A stretch of DNA of 64,000 nucleotides from Pseudisothecium myosuroides (lineage: Eukaryota > Streptophyta > Bryopsida > Hypnales > Lembophyllaceae). Of the stretch, positions 30,747-54,149 are shown in pieces. Numbering within the stretch: the first letter of the stretch is position 1; each line of letters starts with the position of its first letter. The DNA lies in NCBI GenBank assembly GCA_951799445.1, contig OX637292.1, positions 2,669,296 through 2,733,295 of the forward strand. The letters run 5' to 3'. Under the pieces are notes generated by a model that saw nothing but the letters and a program-made list of their open reading frames with translations, was not told the origin of the DNA and did no database searches. The position numbers were made by a program, and so were the translations under genes.

Positions 30747-31168
30747 GGGGGCTCATTTCTCTCTCAAAACACCCCTTAGGTTCATTTGTGAACCGCTTTG
30801 TATAATTTGGGTCCATTTAATTGGATTTTGGCCATTTTTGGGCCACGTTGCCAAATTCTCGTGTTTTGGGAGCATTTCAAGCTCCTTGTTGCTACTTTTT
30901 GAGCTCTTTTGAAGGACTTAGGGGTCCCTTCAACTTAGCTATCTTCTTGTGACATTTCTCGTAAGTGTTTGAAGCTTTGATTAATGTTTTGTTGAAGTTT
31001 TGGTATTTTGTTGACATCCTTGGGTGTTGGGGGCTAATATTGCACTAATCCTAGAGAGTTTCCTTTCCCTATGACTGGCGATGCCGCTTGGGAAAAATCT
31101 CTAGAATTGTTATGTTGTTTAGCACTAACACGTGATAGCTTAAGGGTGGATGCACGGTTGAGTGGACC

Positions 31169-32070
31169 ACTTTTCATGTCACAGTGCTTTTTCCAGTGAG
31201 ACCTTTGCATTGCAAGCCACATTGTACAAAATTGACTACACCATTTGACCTACAAATTTGAACATACACTCTCAACTTGAGTGCAAAGGCAACTATATAA
31301 TTATTATTAAGATATTTTCTTTACCTAAAGAGCTATGGACTTTTAGAGTTGTACATTCAATTTAGAAAAGTCCATATGTTATTTTGTGAAGGCGTTTTTA
31401 ATGAAAAGAACATTCGTGTAATTGTATTAGTGACTCATGATGTGTTGTAGTATAGATTGAGGCACCCCTAAACTATATTGCTTTGTTGTATTGTGGTCTT
31501 AAAATAGTAGTTATGGACTTTTGAAGCAGCTAAGTTCAGTTGTATTTAGAAAAGTCCATAAAAGAATCAAAACAAGGTATTTTCTTAAATTTTTTTTTTG
31601 ATCCAAAATGTTTTTAAAAGTTACAAATGGGCTTTGAATTTATACTTCATTTTAGGTGATTGCTTGAATGCTAGCATTCAACAAGTGTAGGGTAGAAGAA
31701 GACGGGGAACGCTATTCCCAGTCATTTGTGACGGGACTCGGGCCTGGGACGCGGGACCCGATTAGGGTTCTGAACCCACCCCTTCAGAACAGTCATTCTG
31801 CGTCTCTCTCTGCTGGTTGAGTGCTTCCTTTGTGCAAAGTGTCCTAGCTATGGTGAAGTTTGATTTTACTGTTTCAATTCGGGCTTTGAGTTGGGGTGAT
31901 GGCACATTTGGCGATTGCAAATTGAAGTGTTTCTAAACATTCAATTACAGTGTTTACTGAGGTGTTTAGGAGAACCAGTGCCTGTTACAGTTATTCATTT
32001 GGCATGCAGTCTAGGGTTTAGGGTTCACAATGTGAGGGTTTAGAGGAGGAGGACGCTTATTATTGTACAA
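31169..32070. other. Transposon left arm, no gene
   Basis: The first ~430 bp are conserved in the short derivative (53440-53879) and presumably include the transposase-binding sites. ATGGACTTTT and its inverse AAAAGTCCAT occur repeatedly. 31670-32070 has a more GC-balanced composition that may be promoter and leader for the plus-strand gene. Confidence 0.5.
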
Positions 32071-35000
32071 ATGACAAGTGCAAGAGATTTGGCAAGGCGG
32101 ACTGGGGTAAAGCGTCCAGGTCCGGCTGAAAGAGAAAGAGTGTCCTTACAGAAAGAAAGAGATAGAGAGCGGCAACAAAGGAGTAGGCTTCTCAGGAGAG
32201 AGGAGCTTGGTCGGATGCAAGAAGAAGAGCGACTGTATGTTGGGGAAGAGCGCGGAGGAACAGGCGAGAGTTCTCGAGATCATGACAGGGTTATTCGGCG
32301 AGAGGTGTCGCGTGATGTTACAACCATACTAGAGTGTGTGAAGTCAACGTTGGGTGAGCACAGAGATGGACGCCACAGAGAAGCGGTTTTGCAGGCGTTG
32401 TGGTCAAACCCGTTTACCACTTCACAATTGTCGCTCTCAAAAAGGGTTTCAGATGAGGCCAAAATGCAAGCTTCCATCGTCTCTGGGTTGGTTCAATCGT
32501 TGTCCGAAGTGAAAAATGCCAAAACCAGGGCACAGCTAGTAGCGAAGCATACAATTCTTACAACAGTTGTGAGTTCTAGGTCTTCGGGATCGGGATCCGC
32601 AAGACAAACAGCCTGTTTGCTGATTGTCCATCATCGTAATGTGACTATGGCTGTGCAAAGGCGGGCTTCTATGGGGAGTAGTGATCATATAATTTGGACT
32701 CTTTCTGTGAGAAAACAAAGAAGTGACCGAACGTCTGATTTCGTGAAGACGGAAGTTATTGCTTGGTGGATTGCTGAAACCAAGGCTAGTCCAAATCGCA
32801 AGGAGGTGGTGAAGAACTGGATTGCAGCTGGTATCTACGAAAAACACCATACACAATATCTATTGGAATCACAGGTATGAAATCTGTGTTTATTGTTCAA
32901 TCTGTGCAATTTTGGGTTGATTGATTGTTTTTGTGATTAGGATTTAGGGTATTCCAGAATGGAGGGCAAGAATAGATTGCCTGAATGTATCGGGTGTGGT
33001 TTAGGATATAGCAGAAAGTATGTGAAGGTTTAGGGTTTAGGGTTTTAGTTGTGGAACTGTTGGGTGCATTCTATAGGTTCTATGGATAGGATAGGGAAAT
33101 AGTGACCTCTTCTATTATACCATTCATCTTCACACATGGAATTGTGCTTTGAGTGAGGCGGACTTTGGGATCCAGTCAGTTTGGTGTACTTGTGTGAACT
33201 GCAATAGGGTAGAAATGCATTCCAAGTGAGTCACATGGGACCTATGAAGACTGATGTTGTAAAAGTGGAGTAATGAAATGGTGTCCAATGAAGTGCATTT
33301 GGACTTCTATGGCTTCCTGAAGTCTTACGCAAGTTGTATGCAATGTTGCAATCTCAATGGGAATTGAATTACTGTTCTATTGAGTTTGATTAGTGTCCAA
33401 TGAAGTATAGTTACAATTGTATGGCTTCCTAGAATCTCTTGCAACTTGTATGACGAATTGCATTGTTGCAAGGAATTGAGTTAGTTTTCTATTGAGTCTT
33501 CCTCATCATGTATGGTTGATAATGGAGTAGGCAAAAGGTCCATGTCAATTTGTTGCAAGTTTTATAAACTTCTAGGGGAAGCTGGAGCACTTCACAGGCA
33601 GAGAGTATAAGCACTGTACCCAAATTTTCTATATTCAAGTATGTTTACAATTGTTGATGACTGAGCTTGATGATAGACAATACTCGTATGGCACCTCCAG
33701 AGTTCTTGGCTGGACTTTAATGCAGTGATGTTGTGGCTGCAGATGGAATTCTATTTGCGATTTCAAGCTGCAAACCCCCAAGTAGTTGTTGGTAAGAGGG
33801 TCTTTGACTCATTCCAACCATACTTTGTCAAAAGGCTGAAGGAACGAAATGTTTGTTGCTGTATTTATCATGTTGAAATGGAGGAGCTTAGGGTAGGATT
33901 CAATTACATGCGGGTTCTGTCTACATTGCACTTTAAAAGTGCTTGCCAATGTCAGTGTGAGGTGTGTGAAGCTATGAATGGGGAGGGCCAATGTTGTGCC
34001 GAACAGTCCACCTTTCCTGGGGTCACGGCTATGGTGGAATCTATTTTGTGTCCTCGGATTGATGAATGCCAATGGCATAAAAGGGAGTGCATTTTTGGTG
34101 ACTGTGAAAACTGTGGAATAGACTTCCTTCCTCTCTACCCCATTGAGGAAGATGGGAGTTCCAACAGTAAAGTGAAATGGAAGTGATTTGCAATGGAAGC
34201 AATCACAACCAGAAAAGGCGAGGAAAAAAAAATTAACGTTGGTTTACAAAGAAACCTCTTCTGCCGAGTTTGTGAGTTATCTGAAACCTAAACTCCAAGA
34301 GTTTGTGCGTCATTCTTTTGTTGCAAAGTGGGAGGATGAGCAGTTCAAAAATTGTCTTGCAAGCTTTCCTGCTGATTCTATAGTATCCGTGATTGATTTT
34401 GCTGAAAACTACTTGTTTGAGGTCCAAAACAAGGTGCAGTCTATGCATTGGCATAGCTATCAGATCACCATCTTGGTGCACATTACGTGGGTGAGAAATC
34501 CAAACCCTGACCCTACTAATGAAAGTACTAGGAATATAATGGAGTACCATTTTTATATCAGTGACGACAAAAAGCATGATAGCTACTTCGTCTAACATTG
34601 TCTGATGCTTCACTGGGACAGTCTCACCGAAGGAGGCTTCAGGCCTAGAAATCATTGGATTTGGAGTGATGGTTGTGCTGGCCAATTTAAGAGTCGAATT
34701 CCATGGTACTTTGTAAGTCGGTATCCAGAAATTACTAATGGGTGTGCATGTATGTGGAGCTTTTTCGGATCTGGACATGGTAAGGGCCCCCATGACGGGG
34801 CAGGTGCTGTGCTTAAACGTTACATAAGGACTGCCCAACTTGATGTGCATGGCCCACGCCTTGAGGATGCTGAAACAGTTGTCGAATTCTTGAGAGCCAA
34901 ATTGAGCGAAAGGCCAAGAACTACGTATGGTGATCGAAGACCAGTGCAGAGAACCTTCTGGCACGTTCTAGAAGATGACGTTGACAGGGAGAGTAACTTC

Positions 35001-35636
35001 GACTGTGATCCCATCAAAGGATGCAGAGAAGTGCATTCTGTCCAGTCAGTAGGGTCAATGGATGTTAATAAGTTGTTGAAGCGAAATTTGGCTTGCTTCT
35101 GTATTGCTTGCATTGAACGTAACTGGAGGGCATGTGAGAATTTGGCTTGGGCTCAAACTTGGGAGGTTGAGCTTCTTGTTGTTCATAAGCTAAGTTATGT
35201 CCAATCTGTAGTCATGGCTGAGTTCAAGGAAGATGACTGGGATGAGTTTGGAACGAATGGTGAATACTTTGCTTTGATAACGGAGCTTGGTGATAATTTT
35301 GCTATCAATGCTACTCCTAACAATGAAGAGAATGTTGATTTCTATGTCCTTGTTTGTACTAAGGAAGTGTATACATGTAGGAAGGCATTTGAGTGCCCGT
35401 GGGGTGAGTCTTTTGAGCCGGGAGATTTGGTGATTCAGGGACGTTACTATCAAAAATATAGAACTGCGGCTGACACTTATGTTTTTTTGAAGACATCTCA
35501 GAAGGCTCACGTTCTGGTGGCTAACATTAGAGCCACGAAATTCCCAATGCACATTGCTGACCATCGTGTTGCAGGTAATGATTTAGTGTACAGGTTACCT
35601 GAAACTGTGGAGGAGGCAATCCTGGAGTATGTATGA
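32071..35636 (+). pseudogene. Sola-like DDD transposase, spliced and broken
   Basis: Exon 1 (32071-32874) encodes 268 residues: a basic, RERQQRSRLLRREE-rich N-terminus, then a region with DFVKTEVIAWWIAETK and SPNRKEV. It ends CAG|GTATGA. The acceptor GCTGCAG before 33743 resumes in phase 0. Exon 2 has GKRVFDSFQPYFVKRLKERN, then CCCIYHVEM and a cysteine-rich stretch (CQCQCEVC). The presumed catalytic core is DFAENY (34395), WSDGCAGQFK (34668) and GHGKGPHDGAG (34794), giving three aspartates. Three breaks are visible: TGA at 34184-34186, a frameshift probably in the A-run at about 34225-34233, and TAA at 34593-34595. The C-terminus continues open to 35636. The family assignment is from memory of conserved motifs and needs a profile search. 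Confidence 0.65.
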
Positions 35637-37429
35637 TGCGTTACTTGCATTCCGCATTTTGGGCAGCCTACCTCGCTTGGATGTGCGTGGCCATCACCCA
35701 CAGCCTGCCATGCTTGGCAGGGCATTTTTTCTTTGGGACGTGCCTTCGGGCATGTCCCTCCAATGAAACACCAAATTGGAATGATACTGTATTGCTAAAG
35801 GGGGTGATTTGAATGAGGTTTTACGGACTTTGCACTTGCAGGTTTTAGGAACGTGGCAGAGGATAAATGAAGTTTCAAAATGTAACTTAGAATGGTGTCA
35901 AACGAAAGCCTCGGTGGTTTGTATGAGTTCCAGGGACTCTCTATAGAGCTGCATGGGTGTGGTCCTCAACATGAGTGAATTGTTGGTGACTCAATGTCAT
36001 AGAAATGCGCAGTGCTGCTCATAGTGCGGGAAGTTAGATCTTTTGGATATTACTGAACGTCAAAGAAATGGAGATCAGTGCAATTATGGTTCATAGATAC
36101 AGCTAAGCAATTGGGTTGTAGTTAGTTGTACTGTAACTGCCTCGTGGATATAAAGATCCGCATCCTGCAGGCTCTAGGAACAATGCAGTTACTCTTTCTG
36201 CTCACCAACTTCTTAAATAACATTCTTTCCACCGAATTTTGAAATTCTCTACCTTTGATTGACATCTGAGACCCTACCTGAAATCAAAATTACCGATATA
36301 GGGTACAATCAGTTTTCCTAAATTTGTTGGAATGAACTCATGTACAAAATGGTAATGAAATGACCCTTGTCTGAATGTTAAAATTTAGGGTAGTCAGTTA
36401 ATTAAACTAGGTGTTTGTCCAATCAAAAGATTTATGTTCTAAATCCATTATCAATTTCTTGGAAGAAGTCCCATCTGGATGATCTAAAATGTGAATTGAT
36501 TCCACTCTCTTCCATATAGAACATGTATATGGTCCATTTCTTAAAAAGATTAGTGAGACTGGTAATTCTATGAATTCAAGTTTAATGAGGAGTAAGGGCA
36601 CAAGGGCGTCCTTTTAAATTCTCCATGACTGTTGGCCTCCACCCTTGTATAAATTAATGAATTAATAAAATAAGAAGCGTCACTTGAATACAAAAAACTG
36701 CATTGCAACTCCAACATTAGGCCATATTGTTTGCATTCAATTGTACTATTTTTTGACCACTTTCAATTGTGGCCACATGTGATAAATTTAGGATTTAAAT
36801 CAAAACATCATGTATTAGTTTCAATAGAATTTGAATTGGAGGCCTAAACTATATAGTTTGACATGTGACATTTACCTACTCTAATTAACACGTGTCCATT
36901 TTAGAAAGAACAAAAAGGGGGGGGTCCGGAGGCCCAATGGAGATTCCCCTTGTCTCAATGAGACTGAGGCATGGTCCGCCCTTAGGCCCCCAAGTTGAGT
37001 GACTAACACATACGAGCCTTTATATAGGAGCCCACTCAATTAGTGCCAAACGATATGGGATAATCAAGACCTGTCGCCTTCTTGTAACCTAGGCATCCAC
37101 ATTGAACATAGTGGCTTCTCCAAAAACTTATAAAGGGATGTATTTGTGAATTGATTGTGCCTTAGTCATTTAATTTAATGGCCATATGCTCAAGGGTCAA
37201 CATGCAGGCATCTAAATTAAGTTGCCAAGGCTTCTATGTGCAAGTTGATTATGCACTAATTTAATTTAGTAAACGTACATATGGTAAATTAAACATAGAG
37301 GCTTCTATGTGTTTTCAATTATTATGACCAAAATGTTTGGATACATCATCTAATATTATCTGAGACAAAACTTTGGGGCAAGCCAAGACTTTTGGAATAA
37401 TAATATATTCATTTTGGATTTCCATTTAA
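35637..37429. other. Region between transposase and tandem array, no gene seen
   Basis: AT-rich, with ORFs of no more than about 70 codons. It holds no motif I recognise. Confidence 0.4.
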
Positions 37430-38072
37430 AAAGTTTGGTGCAAGTCCAAACTTGTGAATAATTCATTTAATTTTTTTTGAGACAAAGTTTGGTGCTTGCA
37501 AGTCCAAACCTTTGGATAATTCATTTCATATTTTTTGTTCCAAAGTTTGATGAAATCCAAACTTGTGGACAATTCATTTCCTATTTTTTTTGACAAAGTT
37601 TGGGAAAATCCAAACTTGTGGACAATTCATTTTCTATTTTTTTGGACAAAGTTTGGGGAAATTCAAACTTGTGGATAATTCATTTCCTATTTTTTTTTTA
37701 AAGTTTGGTGCAAGCCCAAACTTTAGGATATTAAATCATTTCCTATTTTTTTTACAAAAGTTTGGTGCAAGCCCAAACTTTAGGATATTAAATCATTTCC
37801 TATTTTTTTTACCAAAGTTTGGTGCAAGCCCAAACTTTAGGATATTAAATCATTTCCTATTTTTTTTACAAAAGTTTGGTGCAAGCCCAAACTTTAGGAT
37901 ATTAAATCATTTCCTATTTTTTTTTTAAAGTTTGGTGCAAGCCCAAACTTTAGGATATTAAATCATTTCCTATATTTTTTACAAAAGTTTGGTGCAAGCC
38001 CAAACTTTAGGATATTAAATCATTTCCAATTTTTTTTTACAAAAGTTTGGTGCAAGCCCAAGCTTCTAGAAT
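37430..38072. repeat. Tandem array of hairpin-containing units (about 58 bp)
   Basis: About eleven units. The right-hand ones are near-identical and the left-hand ones diverged. Each contains AAGTTTGGTGCAAGCCCAAA with CTT following, a small stem-loop (AAGTTTGG / CCMAAACTT), then GGATATTAAATCATTTCC and a T-run. It lies between the two converging transposon genes. Confidence 0.9.
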
Positions 38073-39107
38073 AATGGTATATTAATTTCATGTCGCTAAT
38101 GAGCACTAATTAATCCCATAAAATAAGAAGTGGGCGTTATATGCACTCTTTCATTACTTCATGAATCTATTTCTTTTCTTTAGATGAATGTATAACTCTG
38201 AAAGTATTTGAGTAATAACAGTCTTTTGGCCAAAAATAGGGATTTCACTACTAGTCAATTTGCTTTGCTTTTGTCAACCTTAAAGGTAGAACTGAGCCAT
38301 ACGACATGTAGATTTAGTAGGTGCTAAATTTAATTCCATGAAGTAGGATGTGGCCTATATATGCATGGGTATAGTATTCTTTCATTATGGTCACTGTAAC
38401 TTTTTCTTCTTGGAATTTTTTTATTCCACCCACCCTCCCACTAAAATCTTGTCTTCAGTAACAAGGTTAATATTGTATACTACAATTTGCCCATTCAATA
38501 ATTGAGGCTGGCCTTGCTTCATTTTCTGGCAATAAAGACTTTAATATCTATTGGAATGCACTCCCAAACTACAACACTCCAAATTTGTTTCAATTGAATT
38601 CAGCATGTTCTCTTGGGGCATGCTGGCTATAAAGACTCTCCATCCGGTAGGCATACACTGAGAAACCACTATGTAACATGTTGTACCCTGGGAACAGTAA
38701 CACTTTGGTGTTTTTTTTAAATTTATCAACCTACAAGAAGTTAGCTCATTTGGAACCCTGATCAAGTAGGACTGAGTATGCTTTACAACACAACCAAACA
38801 CAAAAGATGCTGCAGTACCACTCCTTTGTATACAGAAATTGATCTTCAAATTACTGTAAGTATAAACAAAATGTACAATCAATTGTCAATCCTCAACATG
38901 ACACTAAGTGTCCTCAACATTGGATCAAAAGAATCTGTGGCTATAGAGACCTAGAAGTAGAGTAAAACAAGTATACCTTTGCAACTCAAATTCTCTACCA
39001 AAAAATGAAAGCCTCCACAATTAATTACAATAGTTGCTGAAATCACTATGTCCTAGTGGTTTTATGCACAGCAGCTCGTGTCTTAGTAGAGAGGCTGATC
39101 CTCTCAT
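38073..39107. other. Region downstream of both transposon genes, no gene seen
   Basis: The minus-strand ORF 38541-38882 (113 codons) has no recognisable domain and no splice context. Probably 3' flanking sequence. Confidence 0.35.
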
Positions 39108-42100
39108 TCACGGGCCTCTTTGCTTCTTGCTGCGCACTCTGCTGCTTTGCTTTCCTGGCTTACTTCGGCCTGAATTCTGAGCAGCTTCTGCATCACTCTC
39201 ACCATTGTCATCCTTTTTTTGTCTGGACTCCCCATCCAATAAGATGCTCTTGTCGCATGCAAGATCACCCTCACTCTCATAGTCATCGCCCACTGCCTGC
39301 CTCGGAGCATCCTCTTGAACTGTTTGGAGCGTTGCTTTCTTGGCTGCTCCCCTCATCCGTTTTTCAGGACAGCTAGAATCCCCCTCTCCATGCATCCTAG
39401 ACTCCTCAGCATTCGGACCCTTGGAGCCAAGCAGGGGCTGCGGTATTGGTACACATCCTTCATTCATATCTTGGCTGCAGCTTGGAGAAATCTGAGGCCC
39501 ACCATGCGGACCTGCAAAATTTTCAACATCACAAGAAGGTAGGATCTGCCTCTTCCGCTTCAACGGAGAGCCCTTCTTCCCGTCCTGCTGGAACTCCTCT
39601 CCTTCGCCCACTGTGTTTACAACCACCATATTCACATTGAGAGGCTTGTAAATTTGCTTCTTGCGCTTAGGTGAAGAGCCTCCTTCCTCCCCCATGTACT
39701 GTTCTTGTGGATCTTCCCAACGCCCTTCCCGACGCCCTTCTCTTGTTTCCCTCGTTCCTGCCCCCAGCCATTGGAAGCTTTGCCCGATCGATGGGCTTAC
39801 AGTATTGGAACGAGCCGAGCGAACCCCCACCGTTGAGAATGATCTTGAAGTTCGAATTGGATCTGCATTTCTCAGTTTTTAGACTCGATACAGCTTGCTC
39901 TAGACAGTTGAGAAAACCATCCATAGTCCACATTGACACTCATGACAATCCTATGACTCACTCTGGACCTTACAGTGATTCATACACCACAAGAAGTCTA
40001 CCCTCAATCATCTGGAACTCTGTACAACACCCCAAGACTACGTTGGGACTTAATAGTAATTCAATAATACCGAGAAAAGTCCACATTCAATAAAGTGGAT
40101 GCTTTGGAACCGAGTCTGGAACACCCTAAGACTATGCTGGGACTTTACAATAATTCCCTAGTACCAAAAGAAGGCTGCACTCGATCAAGTGAACTCTCAT
40201 TAATACACTAAGACTACGCTTGGACTTCATAGTAATTCAATAATACCAAAAAAAGCCTACACTCAGTCAAGTGAACTCTCTTTAACACCCTAAGACCTGG
40301 CTGGGAGTATATAGTAACTGTACTGTAGATTCAAGAACACCACCTAGAGTCTACATTCATTCAAACGAACTCTATATAACACCCTATAACTCCCTCTACA
40401 AGCACACAATACCTCTAGTATGGATTCCCAGACCACAAAAATTGTCTACATCCATTCATCCGAACTACCTGTTATACACTATAACCCCATCCAGAGTAAA
40501 AAGTCCCTGAAGTAACAATTGTAAGACACCCCAAGCAGACTCATTCCATTTAAATGAACTCCCTGATACACTATATAACTAGCAGGCTCTCCGATATGCA
40601 CAGCCCTTATTTTCATTCAAGAACACCTGTGTAGTCTTTGCCACTCTCTTTGCCACCGACTGACTCCTTTGAAAGTACAAATGAACTACTTGAAAGCCCA
40701 AAGTACATTCCTGTGATCCATGGCCGAAATATACCTACTGTGCAAGCCCAAGTCCATGGAGCTTCAATTCACAGAATACCAAATCAATGGACGTTACTAA
40801 CTCTGTGACTCGAAGACTTGTAACATTGTTCCCAATTCAAAAGCAGACTTTGGTGGATTGACAGAACTCTAAACCAGCAAAACAAGTGCAGATATGACAA
40901 AGGTCAAAACCCTAATTTGAATCTGTTCTCCTAGATCAATGCAGGAAGATACAAACTGTGAACTCACCTCCTAAATCTGTGCCAAGATCATTAGGCTGAT
41001 GGTTCCACCCTTCATGTTGTAACCCCTTTGCATTATCACCATCCGGCTTCTTGATACCAAACATCATCCACCAGTCTTTGTGCATTTCTTTGCCACAACC
41101 GTGAAACATATAGCTCGTGGAACTTGAAAAATGAGAAACCGCACACCACGAGTGATAAGCATGCTGGCAACTTGCAAACTTGCAGTCCCACATTGGATCA
41201 AATCCTTTACAACAAAACGGGCAAGGAGCTATCTCCACAATCACTATTTCCCCCACATCCTCCTCACAAGAAAGATAAAAAAAAGGCAAGGGCACTGGGA
41301 AACAGCCTGGGCGTTGGTATCTAGCCTTCATGCCCCTCAACTGCGCCATCGGTACAGTCCTATGACGCCCCCAAAGTTCTTGCTTTGATGCCACGCTGCC
41401 ATACGCTTCTTCAGCTACTGCAGTCTTCTTTGCAGCGTCCTCAAATCCAGTTTCTCCAGAACCAAACATCACCCGCATATGATCCATAACCCCTCTCTAT
41501 GCCTGGACTTGGCATCTCAAATCTGCCACCCTAGAATCCACAGCCCCAATCTCAGCTTCATTTTCTGGTAATTCTGCCCTCAATGCGGTCAGCTTCTCGT
41601 CTTCTAGGGAGCATTCACCCTCCAATGTCTGCAGCCGCAAATCAGCAGTGGCAAGCAGAGATCGCCCATACTCATATTGAGTAGACAATTTCACAAGTTC
41701 AATTTTTGCTGCGTCCTCTTTGCAACGACGCTTGACGAGCCCCTCCAACATTGGGAACTCCTTGTTCAACAAAGACAGCGCTTCCTGCCATTCCGCTATA
41801 GACATTGTGTGCTCACCTAATTTCCCCTCTAGCCCTAATCCGTTGTCAGTCACTTGTGCGCTCCTACTCGGCTGTGCTTCGACACCTTCGACCCCAACGT
41901 TGATGACATCCACCGCACCCTCCTTCTTGCAACCAGCAGTCAAAACACATTTTTTTCTCTCATCGCGCTCTAGGTTAAATCTTCGCAGCTGGTCGCGGCA
42001 GGTCCACTCAGCATGAAGACACCAATTTGTCTTCTTGTTCGGCAATAACTCATATGCCAAACCTTTAGCTTCAGCAACATTGATCAGCCGTGTGTTTGGA

Positions 42101-42471
42101 ACACTTGTGCGTTGGTGGGTAAGCATCCATATCTTCTCCACCTTCTCCACAAAGTTGGTATCTTCCAACGACGAGTAAGCGTAACCGTTGGAGTTGACCT
42201 TCGCTCCAAACAATGCCTCTACGTCTGATTCTAGCAAATGAATCCCGTATTTGAGCCGCTTTGGAGCCAAACCCTCATTACACAAACCAAAAGCCTCTGC
42301 AAAATACCCCCGCTTCAATGGTGTCAACTTGTCCCACGTAATTGTGGGTTGTTCTGCGTACAAAGGGTCGACCCAAGCTGCTCCTTCAACCTTGACCTTC
42401 TTCCTAACTGATCGCGAAACCTTCCCCAATAGAGACTCCTGCTCTTCCTCGAAGACCTCCGTATCACTCAT
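39108..42471 (-). pseudogene. Second gene of the Sola-like element: coiled-coil / zinc-finger protein
   Basis: Exon 1 (40968-42471) and exon 2 (39108-39757) are joined by a 1,210 bp intron with GTGAGT donor and GGGGGCAG acceptor; the phase fits exactly (GG|GTGAGT to GA-ACG-AGG). The ~717-codon frame has one defect, TAG at 41497-41499. Upstream of it is a 324-residue part ending in a probable coiled coil (LRLQTLEGECSLEDEKLTAL). Downstream is a zinc-finger-like block CPFCC-x9-CKFASCQHAYHSWC followed by CGKEMHKDWW, resembling RING/PHD cross-brace spacing. Exon 2 is hydrophilic, with two SPKRKKQIY/SPLKRKRQIL repeats that look like nuclear localisation signals and a basic end. Its role in transposition is unknown. 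The TAG could be a recent mutation, since the frame is otherwise open. Confidence 0.6.
39940..40420. repeat. Degenerate ~100 bp tandem repeat in the intron of the second transposon gene
   Basis: Four to five units share CACCCTAAGACTACGCTGGG, TAGTAATTCAATAATACC and AAGTGAACTCT. It lies fully within the 39758-40967 intron. Confidence 0.7.
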
Positions 42472-42902
42472 TGTTTCCGTAAAATACGACTTACGATTTT
42501 CCTAAACCATTGCTAAGAAAAACACTCGAGTCCTAAACTTGTCACGCAGGGCACGCGGGCCAGCTTCGGGGACAGACAGAGAAGGAGCATGACGGACAGA
42601 CAGGAATGAAGCCCCCAATGCCGGCGTCAGCAGCAGCTCCGATCATTGTCGGATGCGATAACTTCAAAATGGACGGGTCAGATTTCCAACCACGCGGCCC
42701 ATTAACTACTTTATGGCCAGTTCAACTATCGGGCCCTGAAGCCGCCAAGCCAGCTCTGAATGGGCTGATTTCTCTGATGCACTTTAATCTCACCCAATCA
42801 CAAAGCCATATTCTGCCACGTCATACTGCGGGTCAGCCTTATATTAAGTTCTATGGATATGGACTTCCGCCACCTTTGGTCCACTCAACCATGCATCCAC
42901 CC
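42472..42902 (-). promoter_or_regulatory. Transposon right end and probable promoter of its second gene
   Basis: The 431 bp between the presumed ATG (42471) and the right terminus. The outermost ~65 bp are conserved in the short derivative (53106-53170). No obvious TATA box was identified with confidence. Confidence 0.4.
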
Positions 42903-45900
42903 TTAAGTATTTACTAACGATCCATTCCCTTCATAGTTGTCCACATTCTCCTTGTTTCTTGTAGCACGGCGAAGCTTTGGCTTAGTGTGTCTAGAGTCTC
43001 TATAGAAATTTAGCCATTTCACAAAAAACACGGCGAAGCTTTGGTTTAGTGTGTCTAGATTTTTATAGAAATTTAGCCATTTCACAAAAACACGGCAAAG
43101 CTTTGGCTTCATAGATGCCCAAAAATTCCTAAGAAATTATAGAAGTGGTGACTTATCCAAGTTTAGGTTCCAAAACATTTGGTTTGGAAGTCCAAGTTTA
43201 GTATCCAAAAGTTAGCATTCGCAAGTGTTAAATTAGTATTCCCAAAAATTAGAGCTCCATCTTCGGATTAATATCCAAAAGGTAATACCAAAAATTAAGA
43301 ACTCAAACACCCCCAAAAAATCATCCCGAGCCATCTCCCAAGATCCGTATACAGGCTGCCAAGGACCGATCAGTACACAGCTGCCAAGGAGCCGATCAAT
43401 ACATAGCTGCCAAGGACCGATCAGTACACGGGCTGCCAAGGACGGGTCCGGCGAACCACGAGCCGCCGCGTGGCGGGGCCATCTCAGCGGGCAGTGCCAA
43501 CCGGCTGCTGACGGGGACGGGTCCGACAAACCGGGGCGCGACACGTGGCGCGTGGAGGAGCCGGGTATTGGGATCGCTCCCAGTCTGTGGCTGCCTCGTT
43601 TCGGGTCTGTGGCTGCCTCACTTCGGGTCTGGGACTACCTCGCTTCGGGTCTGTGGACTGCCTCGCTTTGGGTCTATGATTTGGTCTTGCTTGGGTCTGT
43701 GATCTGGTCTTGCTCAAAGGTCTGTGATCTTGAACTGGACGGATCTAGGCCCTGGCCAGTTGCTAAAAAATTGGATTTTTGATGAAACTCAAACTCAAAC
43801 AAAAAGAATTCAAAGGACAAACTAAACTTTAGATGTAGGAAGGTCCTCAAAAAGAAAAGAAGGATAGGAAGTAGTAGGAGAATTTAATTTGAAATTAGAA
43901 TAGGAGGTGAAGGAAGGAAATAGTGATTAGAATAGCAAATAGAGAGGAAAGATAGTGACAATTAGAACTCTTCAAATTTAACAATGGTATAGAATTCTCT
44001 CAATCCTTCATACTCTCAATAGCTAGTGGTACCAACCGGTTCATATTACAAGTGTGAAATTAGTGAGCGAAGTTGGGAGTTTAAATGGAAACAAATTAGA
44101 AGATAAGAGGAGTTTAGAAAATCTTAAAGGAGTGATTTGGACCATTAGAAATAGGATAGAATGAATTATTGACTTGAAGGAAGGAAGAAGCTTATCAATT
44201 CGATAATTCAAAAGGAATTATTGGAGAAGACCTTTCAAGTCAACTAGGAGTATAAATAATTGAATTAGAATAGTGTTAGAAGAGAAAGAGAAATTAGAAG
44301 GAAAAGAAAAGAAAAGTGAAATTCAAGAATTGGCAAACCTTGTACTAAAATCCCTACTTTAAGCCGTGGGCAAAACTACCAAACGATTCCAAAATATGGC
44401 AAATGATGTGAAGTTTGAAGGGGTATACGATTACCTAAACAATGACTCCAACTCCGAGGTAAGCTCCTAACTTTAAACCATCCATTCCAATTTCTCAAAA
44501 TTAGACATTTACAAGTAGGACCGAACTTTAAATTCAATTCAAAGTGTCTAGAATAGGAATATTTCAAGAACTAGGGTAGTAGTGTTGTAGAGTCTAGTTA
44601 GAGGTTTCCAAAACCATCTCACCCTTAGAATTTGGAATCAAATTGAAAGAGATATTAGCGGATGAAGTTTAGGAGTAATATCGGATGAAAGTTAGTACAT
44701 TTCATCCAAATGGAACAAGAATAGAATCTTAGGTAGAAACATAAATCTAGAATCCAGAAGTGAAACAAAAATTAGAATTCAAGTTGTAGGTTAGTAGAAA
44801 ACCATGGATGAAGTTTGAAGTACCCATTAGCGGTCAAACTTCATCCATTGATAACTCCTAGTAGGAAGGTCCAATTAGCACGTGTCTTAGCATTTTGGAA
44901 AGCTAGAATTAAGAGTTACAAAGAAAAATTAACAAAAATCTAAAAATAGTAATCTGCTCAGAGTAGCACCGATCCACCTAAGTAGGATAAAGATCAAACA
45001 ATTATTAAAAGAGGTAATCAAAGAGAAGAATTAGATTTGGAAATAGGTAGAAGGCACTTAGTAAAGCCTAGAACTAGTCTAACTTAAGAGAAATTCTTAA
45101 TCATTTAGTAGCAACCAACGGATGAACTTTGGGTTAGAATATGGATGAAATAGGATAAAACTCATCCATCCAAGTCCAAACTTAGAACTTAGGTAGAAGT
45201 GGGCAATATAGAGTCAGAGTCAAAAACTTGAAGTAAAATAGAATAGGGAAGGAGTCTAAATCCAAGGATGAAGTTTGGATAGACTTATACAAGCTAAAAC
45301 TTCATCCGTCCATAACTCTTGCTAGGAAGGTCGCATAATGTTGAGTTTTATATTTTTGGAAATGGAATGAAATTCTCTATCTTTATATGTGGCTAAATTT
45401 AGACTGTATCACCTTTCTTTCAAAAACCACCGTGGCCTAGTTGGTACGACCCAATTAGAGTAAAACTTGCAATTTAAGTTAGTTCTCTTGACTTCTTTAG
45501 TTCTTGCAAACTTGTGTATGTTTAGGATTTAGAAAAGATCCATTGCTTGGAAGGCACAATGGATTTACGCTAAGCACCCACAGAACGAGAATCAAACCTA
45601 AAAACTCAAGAGCCTAGTTGTGCTCACTTATTTACCAAGGGTAGGTAAATAAGCACTCACAATCATACCCATTATAGTATTTGGTCTAGATTTGTGTTTG
45701 TACTTAGAATCCCCCCAAACCTCGCCTAAAAATAGAATAGAAATAACGAGATGGCTAGATTGGAAGGATTTGAATTTCATAGCCTCAAAAGGGCTAAATC
45801 CCACCAGGAATGTGGCAATTCATGGCTAAGTCGGTCTGAGGGATCCATAGCAAGGCCACTAGGTCAAGTCCTAGAGTTAAATTTAGAATTCCCCATTAGA

Positions 45901-52289: not shown

Positions 52290-54149
52290 ATTGTATAACT
52301 CTTGCTGAGTACAAACACAGAAGTTGTGAACAAGAAAGAACGCTAGTCGCATTTGACAGCCACGCCTGTCACTTCGGCTCATAAAATCTTGTGCAAGGAT
52401 GGCTTGGATCTAATCCAGAATAAGGACAAAGGTCATTTTTCTCTTTCGACCGATTTTACCTTAGTAGAACGTTGTATTGAAATTAAGCATGACGTACAAG
52501 CATGACCTTAAAACGTGGATCATTAAGGATATAAAACTTGTCAGTCTTTAAACTTGTCTCTACGCTCTTTTTCTCACAATGGCCGCAGATTATGCGGCCT
52601 AAAGCACGCAAAAGTCCGACCAAGGTCCCACTAGGGTAGATTTTACCATCTCTTTGCAGAACCTGAAGGAAAAATGTAGAGAATAGTTCATTGAACTCTG
52701 CCAAAGCTAATCTATATAGCTCTTCAATCTTTATATTGCCAGAGATGCCACTAACTTTCCGCCAAGCATTGAATATGTTGTGTGCCCACTATTCCATGTA
52801 CAATGACTTTCAATTGCCACCTTGCTTCACAAGCTCCACCTCTTTCTTTGTCAAGTTGCATAAATCCCTTCCTAAGGAACTTGATCTCGTCATCACTTTG
52901 TGGATCAGGAATAGACATGAAGGGAGGAACATGATCACTGTTGTCATCTCCTAGAAGTTGAAAAACATCCTCCTTGCTAGGTTCGGTTACGAAATCGATA
53001 TCCTCTTTGTCTTCAACTAGCCAAGGAGGATCTTCAACATAAGAGAATTTGTCAGATTGAATAGCAAAGCAGTTAGTCTCTACAACCACTAGATCATTGC
53101 TAATTGGGTGTTTGCATGGTTGAGTGGACCAAATGTGGCAGGAGTCCATATCCATATAACTCACTACAAGGCTAGTCAGAAAAAATTTGCATAAAAAAAT
53201 GAAGTAATGAACACAATAATCCAAAGAAAGACACATGTTGGTATAGAATAAGCGTTGTAGAGAATCCTTTTAGAACCCTGCAATGTGTCCTACCAAAAAT
53301 GCTTAAGGACATCATCTACTCATTCTGGTGCCCTAAATCTTGAAAATGCCAATGGTATCAATATTTATCCAATTGTCAATGTTGATTTGAAGCCCATCTG
53401 CAATTTCTAGCAACATTTAGGATTCCAATATATTTTTTGGGAAAACACATTGTTTTGACACTTCTATGGACTTTTTAAAATATGATTCAATTCAACCCCT
53501 TCAAAAGTCCATAACTACTATTTTAAGATCAATATCAAGTAAAACAATATAATTTCTAGGTGCCTCAATCTACACTACAAAACATAATTAGTCACTAATA
53601 CAATAACAAGAATGTTCTTTTCATTAAAAAGACTCACAAAATGCTATATGGAGTTTTCTAAATCCAATTTGCAACTTTAAAAGTCCATGGCTCTTTATCT
53701 AAAGAAGAAACCTTCTAAATAATTATGTGGTTGCCTTTGCATTCAAGTTGAGATTGTATGTTCAAATTTATAGCTACAATGGTAAAGTGAATTATCTACA
53801 ATGTGGCTTGCAATGCAAAGGTCTTGCTGAAAAATTCATTGTGACATGAAAAGTGGTCCACTCAACCATGCACACACCCAATTGTAGCAACCACATGAGC
53901 ATTGCTAATAATAGAGCAATTGATCTCAGAAACCTTAGGAGTATCGCCAGTTGCAGAAGATGCAAGATCAAATAGAACAGCTTCACTATCAAAATGTCGC
54001 AATTTTGATTCAAACGCAGCATTAAAAGCCTCATAGAAATAACTAGATGAGTCATGCGGTTCACTCAAATTGCTCTTTGAAGTAAAAACAACAATAAAAC
54101 TAATAGGATCCAAGTTAGAAACGCCTCGCAATGCACTCCGAGTTTCCAT
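52290..54149 (-). pseudogene. Crypton-like (tyrosine recombinase / DUF3504-type) gene, interrupted
   Basis: Reading from an ATG at 54149, one exon runs to 53880, is interrupted by a 774 bp transposon (53106-53879), and continues in frame from 53101 once a single AATT is kept. It ends AAG|GTCATG at 52507. A further exon, 52290-52409 (exactly 40 codons, AG acceptor and GTAAGC donor), follows in phase. The N-terminal part is acidic. The middle resembles the SAM-like core-binding domain of Crypton-derived recombinases (LALAEFNELFSTFFLQVLQR, YPSGTLVGLLRALGRII, NDPRFK). The last exon (RLAFFLVHNFCVCTQQELYN) resembles the segment around the first catalytic Arg, which appears replaced. A one-base frameshift near 52760 also breaks it. 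The family call is tentative. Confidence 0.5.
53106..53879. mobile_element. 774 bp deletion derivative of the Sola-like transposon
   Basis: Ends GGGTGTTTGCATGGTTGAGT and, inverted, GGGTGTGTGCATGGTTGAGT. AATT flanks both sides (53102-53105, 53880-53883). Its right ~430 bp match the left arm of the 11.76 kb element (31144-31590, inverted), and its left ~65 bp match that element's right end. There is no coding capacity, so movement would depend on a full-length copy. Removing it with one AATT restores an open frame in the surrounding gene. Confidence 0.9.

Follow-up and report, generated by a model that had tools for sequence, protein, structure and literature searches.

What kind of element interrupts a long terminal repeat (LTR)-type repeat in the moss Pseudisothecium myosuroides, and why does it carry a second gene that faces the one for its putative transposase? 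The insertion lies at positions 31144–42902 (11,759 bp) of the 64,000-nt stretch analysed here (contig OX637292.1 of assembly GCA_951799445.1, positions 2,669,296–2,733,295; hereafter, the window). We consider it, with a probability of about 0.8, to be a class II DNA transposon of a Sola-like lineage with three catalytic aspartates (DDD), and one broken copy of a family that includes full-length copies. This reading is based on its 26-bp inverted ends, 4-bp target-site duplications without a fixed word, an empty site, a predicted DDD core, internally deleted relatives, and a conserved second gene. The latter is not a chance passenger of the element, because it recurs in convergent orientation with the transposase gene in diverged families.

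Borders of the element

The following features delimit the insertion.

31140–31143, no strand: left copy of the target-site duplication, TTAA, read from the sequence
31144–31169, plus strand: left terminal inverted repeat of 26 bp, sharing 25 of 26 positions with the right end
42877–42902, minus strand: right terminal inverted repeat of 26 bp, differing from the left end at one position
42903–42906, no strand: right copy of the target-site duplication, TTAA, read from the sequence
2171–2174, no strand: empty target site TTAA in another copy of the LTR-type repeat, at the left of the window and in inverted orientation

When the flanks were joined in silico with a single TTAA, the alignment with the other copy of the repeat ran straight through the junction, covering 2,210 bp at 98.9% with one gap opening. 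The borders and the empty site proposed in an earlier, sequence-only reading of the window are exact. That reading had also described termini of 25 bp; the ends are indeed inverted repeats, starting with GGG and finishing with CCC, but they extend for 26 bp and are not perfect.

Gene 1 and its predicted DDD core

The gene on the plus strand, gene 1, can be assembled from two exons, the second of which holds the candidate catalytic residues.

32071–32874, plus strand: gene 1 exon 1, N-terminal region, with donor GT at 32875; splice site proposed from the sequence
33743–35635, plus strand: gene 1 exon 2, with a Cys-rich region, the RNase H-like DDD core and a C-terminal domain; splice site proposed from the sequence
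34395–34397, plus strand: candidate catalytic Asp 1 (DFAENY), D219 of P0001, in strand 1 of the predicted RNase H-like fold
34668–34670, plus strand: candidate catalytic Asp 2 (WSDGC), D310 of P0001, at the end of strand 4
34794–34796, plus strand: candidate catalytic Asp 3 (GHGKGPHDG), D352 of P0001, at the start of the helix after strand 5

The three motifs were first noticed in the sequence-only reading as a plausible DDD core, and all of them are present in gene 1. The three aspartates are invariant in an alignment of 55 sequences and occupy RNase H-like positions in the predicted model, which supports that proposal.

A search of ca. 5.8 billion proteins identified 55 relatives of the gene 1 product, the closest being 76% identical. 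Most are unnamed, and those with a name are from the moss Ceratodon (39%), the liverwort Calypogeia, the alga Klebsormidium, and a sponge. A profile search produced 146 matches, and the 120 of them that were listed include proteins from two conifers, a prasinophyte alga, two fish, a hagfish and a limpet. By the nearest named relatives, the host would be plant-like and probably a moss. The fish, hagfish and limpet proteins are presumably Sola-like transposases, and animal Sola proteins presumably carry the same three motifs as gene 1, which serves as a lead only.

The copy in the window is defective in both genes, a fact that had been missed. Exon 2 of gene 1 is broken by a TGA (34184–34186), a frame break at a run of A (34224–34232) and a TAA (34593–34595), and gene 2, described below, is interrupted by a single TAG. 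Having no open full-length frame for either protein, this copy would be expected to move only with proteins from another copy. Exon 1 of gene 1 was recovered in eight of the nine other long copies fetched, and is missing from the internally deleted copy C11_15.7.

Copies in the genome and target-site duplications

The genome searched comprises 388 Mb in 222 contigs. The genome-wide search with the termini that had been suggested earlier produced 40 matches to the left end, including that of the window copy, ten of them at 96–100%. We inspected 33 (two within the window, one of them the element itself, and 11 plus 20 fetched copies) and left out seven; both ends were visible in 22 and not in the other 11. 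Among the two-ended copies, 16 of 22 are short relatives of 753–1,033 bp that keep the same ends, which is what mobilization in trans would produce. The window also holds a relative of this kind:

53106–53879, minus strand: 774-bp non-autonomous relative, with the 4-bp duplication AATT

Apart from the window copy, a single full-length copy lacks large insertions, at C3:19.3 Mb (11,984 bp, ca. 97% identical, duplication TTGT). It is 225 bp longer overall than the window copy, possibly because of a tandem array that separates the two genes:

37425–38073, no strand: array of 11.6 copies of a 57-bp tandem repeat, between gene 1 and gene 2

Target-site duplications were surveyed in 24 elements, the 22 two-ended copies and two diverged relatives dealt with below. 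A perfect 4-bp duplication flanks 16 of the 24, five match at three of the four positions, and three at fewer. The perfect duplications are TTAA, TTGT, TTCA, GACA, TAAA (twice), GACT, TTTT, TGAA, CTAC, TCAT (twice), TGTG, AATT, ATAT and AACT. Duplication lengths of 1 to 9 were tried on 19 of the two-ended copies, and no match was longer than 4. Since the words vary, the TTAA at the window copy is a single instance of a loose target that is AT-rich for the most part. The sequence-only reading had not noted that the duplication is not TTAA-specific.

These words bear on whether the element is TTAA-specific, that is, a Kolobok or a piggyBac transposon, possibly with an accessory gene of the Kolobok style on the other strand. 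Besides the TTAA flanking the window copy, such an origin is favoured by the termini, GG..CC, which fit the RR..YY of Kolobok, and by KolobokP, whose second gene is likewise encoded on the complementary strand (PMC9587614). Kolobok elements are, however, described there as TTAA-specific, with a DDD/E transposase containing a C/DxxH motif and with other accessory proteins, although a second, lineage-specific protein is a trait that KolobokP and Kolobok0/KolX share with our element. Here, TTAA accounts for one of the 16 perfect duplications and 15 are other words; the third acidic residue is Asp; C/DxxH was not seen by eye between the second and third Asp (residues 311–351 of P0001); and there is no Pfam DDE match, which, together with the duplications, also speaks against piggyBac. 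We regard a TTAA-specific element as very improbable.

The converging gene

Gene 2 converges on gene 1 from the opposite end of the element, as had been proposed, and the long helices, zinc-type site and lysine-rich stretches that had been attributed to it were all found.

40968–42471, minus strand: gene 2 exon 1, with a conserved N-terminal region, coiled-coil-like helices and a RING-H2-like zinc site; in-frame TAG at 41497–41499
41095–41223, minus strand: Cys/His site of gene 2, RING-H2-like; its Pfam matches fall short of the curated threshold
39108–39862, minus strand: gene 2 exon 2, lysine/arginine-rich (SPKRKKQ, SPLKRKRQ), resembling nuclear localization signals; the proposed splice sites keep it in frame with exon 1

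Apart from the TAG, the frame is continuous over both exons. We found 13 relatives of the deduced product in the databases, the closest 87% identical, all sharing the conserved N-terminal region, and the helical part is also common to the full-length relatives. A short serine-proline motif of exon 2 is shared, by eye, by the two diverged relatives. The zinc-type site, likewise shared by the full-length relatives, reads C-x2-C ... C-x-H-x2-H-x2-C ... C-x4-C, although its first His is not present in all relatives, and in the window copy a Tyr replaces one of the ligand Cys residues of the relatives. A gene 2 profile gave nine matches to solved structures, the best at E 0.013; most are coiled-coil chains, and one is a RING protein (E 0.26). 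The strongest single Pfam match, to a lipase chaperone (P0060, E 0.0001, below the cut-off), lies over the helices and was taken as an effect of these.

Two loci, at C7:13.80 Mb and C10:1.27 Mb, contain two gene-2-like genes in tandem. At C7:13.80 Mb both of them point at a transposase match situated ca. 10–18 kb away. There may thus be elements that exceed 20 kb and carry gene 2 twice; the ends of these two loci were not found.

Gene 2 travels with the transposase gene

The genome contains at least 120 matches to the transposase and at least 85 to gene 2, which merge into at least 115 and 80 loci, respectively. Among the 80 gene 2 loci listed, 32 have a transposase match within 12 kb in convergent order, one has it in divergent order, and 47 have none. 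When positions were shuffled (1,000 trials), the mean was 0.26 convergent pairs and the maximum 2. The window's own family (91% or more) accounts for nine of the 32 pairs, and in the other 23 the transposase is 36–51% identical to that of the window. The scores of the two genes co-vary across pairs (Spearman 0.71 on bits and 0.50 on identity), with fragment lengths confounding this somewhat.

We read two diverged relatives from end to end, one of 13,289 bp flanked by ATAT and another of 13,835 bp flanked by AACT. Both maintain the same gene order, and their ends are related to GGGTGAATGCAYGGTT. The ratio of nonsynonymous to synonymous substitution rates (dN/dS) between them is 0.09 for transposase exon 2 (dS 0.72) and 0.19 for gene 2 exon 1 (dS 0.77); both genes are under purifying selection in these 13–14 kb relatives. 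Between the window copy and C6, the ratio for gene 2 is 0.34 and synonymous sites in the transposase are saturated. The conserved convergent pairing and the selection on both genes indicate that gene 2 has travelled with the transposase gene and has kept working over long times.

Alternatively, gene 2 could come from a separate family, of mobile or host genes, whose members happen to be captured often. Most of the at least 85 gene 2 matches are diverged, nearly three fifths of the merged loci listed (47 of 80) have no transposase match within 12 kb, and two of the loci read hold two such genes in tandem, all of which fit repeated capture. Nevertheless, the fixed convergent order, the similar dS values, the purifying selection and the co-divergence with the transposase argue against it, and we find independent capture improbable.

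Relation to Sola and to other superfamilies

Sola elements have a DDD transposase and 4-bp duplications, measure mostly 2–9 kb with some over 15 kb, have ends of 11–1124 bp, and occur in Physcomitrella (PMC10741241), from which Sola1 has been reported (PMC9033089). The family studied here resembles them in all of these respects: a predicted DDD core, 4-bp duplications (perfect in 16 of the 24 elements surveyed), inverted ends of 26 bp, sizes of 11.8–13.8 kb, and a moss host. The published passages on Sola make no mention of a conserved converging gene for a coiled-coil, RING-like protein, and neither did the titles, abstract openings and consulted passages of the papers listed in literature searches yield a Sola-type element with such a gene. 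The proposal of a Sola-like, cut-and-paste DDD element with two converging genes is compatible with Sola as published, and we liken our element to Sola, with a second gene that looks obligate, by description and not by protein comparison. It is uncertain whether the family is undescribed, as had been suggested, with Sola1 already known from a moss, and the notion that it is unusually large is weak in view of the Sola elements of more than 15 kb on record (PMC10741241).

Profile and structure searches had been recommended to place the core. No Pfam transposase model matched any of the 55 gene 1 relatives at E 0.01, their matches being to leucine-rich repeat models in one, to DUF6597 in two, and two weak single ones. 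At the sequence level, a profile from 22 sequences matched none of the solved structures. In the comparison with predicted viral structures a single match passed E 0.001, unusable with TM-scores below 0.1, and none of 73 pattern-matching stretches in viral contigs, or of 134 in genome contigs of bacteria, was confirmed as a relative.

The lack of Pfam and solved-structure matches, together with a second gene conserved over deep divergence, would suit a superfamily distinct from Sola, characterized by GGGTG ends, 4-bp duplications, a transposase with DFAENY, SDGC and HGKGxxDG, and an obligate second gene. This is countered by the reach of the profile into fish, hagfish and limpet proteins, presumably Sola-like. 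It is also countered by the published definition of Sola, to which a DDD core with 4-bp duplications corresponds (PMC10741241), and by the report of Sola1 from a moss (PMC9033089). We hold a distinct superfamily to be possible, though doubtful. An extended version of it is similarly tentative and, in our judgement, unlikely: a separate superfamily of green plants and animals whose plant branch would have had, since deep time, an obligate coiled-coil and RING-H2-like protein encoded on the facing strand and serving the transposase as a partner, either ubiquitin-type or chromatin-directed, with some elements exceeding 20 kb and carrying two copies of gene 2.

Other families share particular traits with our Sola-like element. 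MuDR (mudrA/mudrB) and other two-gene plant transposons likewise combine a transposase with a helper gene. The genes mudrA and mudrB are also convergent, and their products are not known to be related to those described here. Mutator elements (MULE), however, generate duplications of 7–12 bp (PMC10741241), in contrast with the 4 bp found here. In Nuwa elements the second protein is of the Myb/SANT type (PMC12730594). Lanisha and other CMCT elements, proposed to move by cut-and-paste, resemble ours in this and in the short duplications of CMCT (2–5 bp), but have mostly CA..TG ends and C(2)C/H(3-4)H motifs (PMC12730594). Here the ends are GGG..CCC and, by eye, residues 311–351 of P0001 show C-x-C only and not C(2)C. 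Lanisha was reportedly described by moss researchers.

Several observations weigh against our interpretation. The mobility of the element is deduced from sequence evidence. The third Asp differs in two of six distant relatives read, both from fish and outside the 55-sequence alignment. Foldseek comparisons with solved structures were weak, with one match under E 0.001 (NurA, TM-scores 0.10–0.12), and the fold assignment derives from a predicted model re-aligned at moderate Z. For gene 2, the predicted model is confident only at around residues 240–390, where it shows long helices, and is poor elsewhere, and the Pfam RING model matches the site in six of the seven relatives scanned, below the cut-off, which affects the role proposed for this gene. 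Comparisons of the window copy with five copies of the same family gave ratios of nonsynonymous to synonymous differences (pN/pS) of 0.37–0.56 for gene 2 and 0.33–0.68 for gene 1, weaker than between the diverged relatives. The frame break at the A run is shared by all nine same-family copies that keep the region. Finally, a converging transposase is missing within 12 kb of 48 of the 80 gene 2 loci listed, and such a gene 2 is missing from 83 of the 115 transposase loci listed.

The weaker ratios within the family are as in decaying copies, and the unpaired loci could be due to any one of decay, nested insertions, incomplete match lists or families with a single gene. As for the shared frame break, the window's subfamily may have spread only by means of proteins from elsewhere; spread in trans, slippage restoring the frame in some products, and an assembly problem are the alternatives. 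The two fish proteins without the third Asp (P0138 and P0140) are perhaps inactive or domesticated.

Proposed mechanism and role of gene 2

Transposition would start with the binding of the transposase to the inverted ends and, perhaps, to subterminal inverted repeats, two copies of which were recognized by direct reading:

31334–31376, plus strand: subterminal inverted repeat, TATGGACTTTT ... AAAAGTCCATA
31512–31560, plus strand: second copy of the same subterminal inverted repeat

The first falls within the ca. 440 bp of the left end kept by the short relatives C5_19.6 and C7_26.3. The transposase would then excise the element, and the 4-bp duplication would arise as the ends of the element are joined to the target strands at points 4 bp apart. 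The product of gene 2 would be a nuclear, coiled-coil, RING-H2-like protein that aids transposition; as a first guess, it may bind the transposase or the ends, or counter silencing by the host. Other plant transposons have helper proteins that act likewise.

In-frame stops within the transposase and gene 2 matches are TAG in 126 of 214 cases, TGA in 66 and TAA in 22, counts for which no background expectation was computed. Such a preponderance of TAG, as C-to-T changes at methylated CAG would give, faintly suggests an anti-silencing role for gene 2.

Descriptions of DNA transposons mostly centre on the transposase. Being kept by selection over a large divergence, gene 2 can be put to the test as a candidate new helper, or anti-silencing factor, of plant transposons, and the family offers a structural case for a class of DDD transposases that no solved structure matches by sequence.

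Other observations on the copies

Insertions of ca. 3.5 kb occur at differing points in copies C4_25.7, C9_227, C9_448, C11_6.1 and C11_12.2 (loci L011–L014 and L017–L022), each with an overlap of ca. 5–6 bp that resembles a short duplication; they look like one repeat family that often strikes these transposons. The copies at C9:227 kb and C9:448 kb are very similar, lie in opposite orientation ca. 200 kb apart, and have an insertion at the same point of the element, with different left flanks. Contig C11, with 4.4% of the genome, carries 26 of the 120 transposase matches listed and may be a repeat-rich or sex-linked chromosome.

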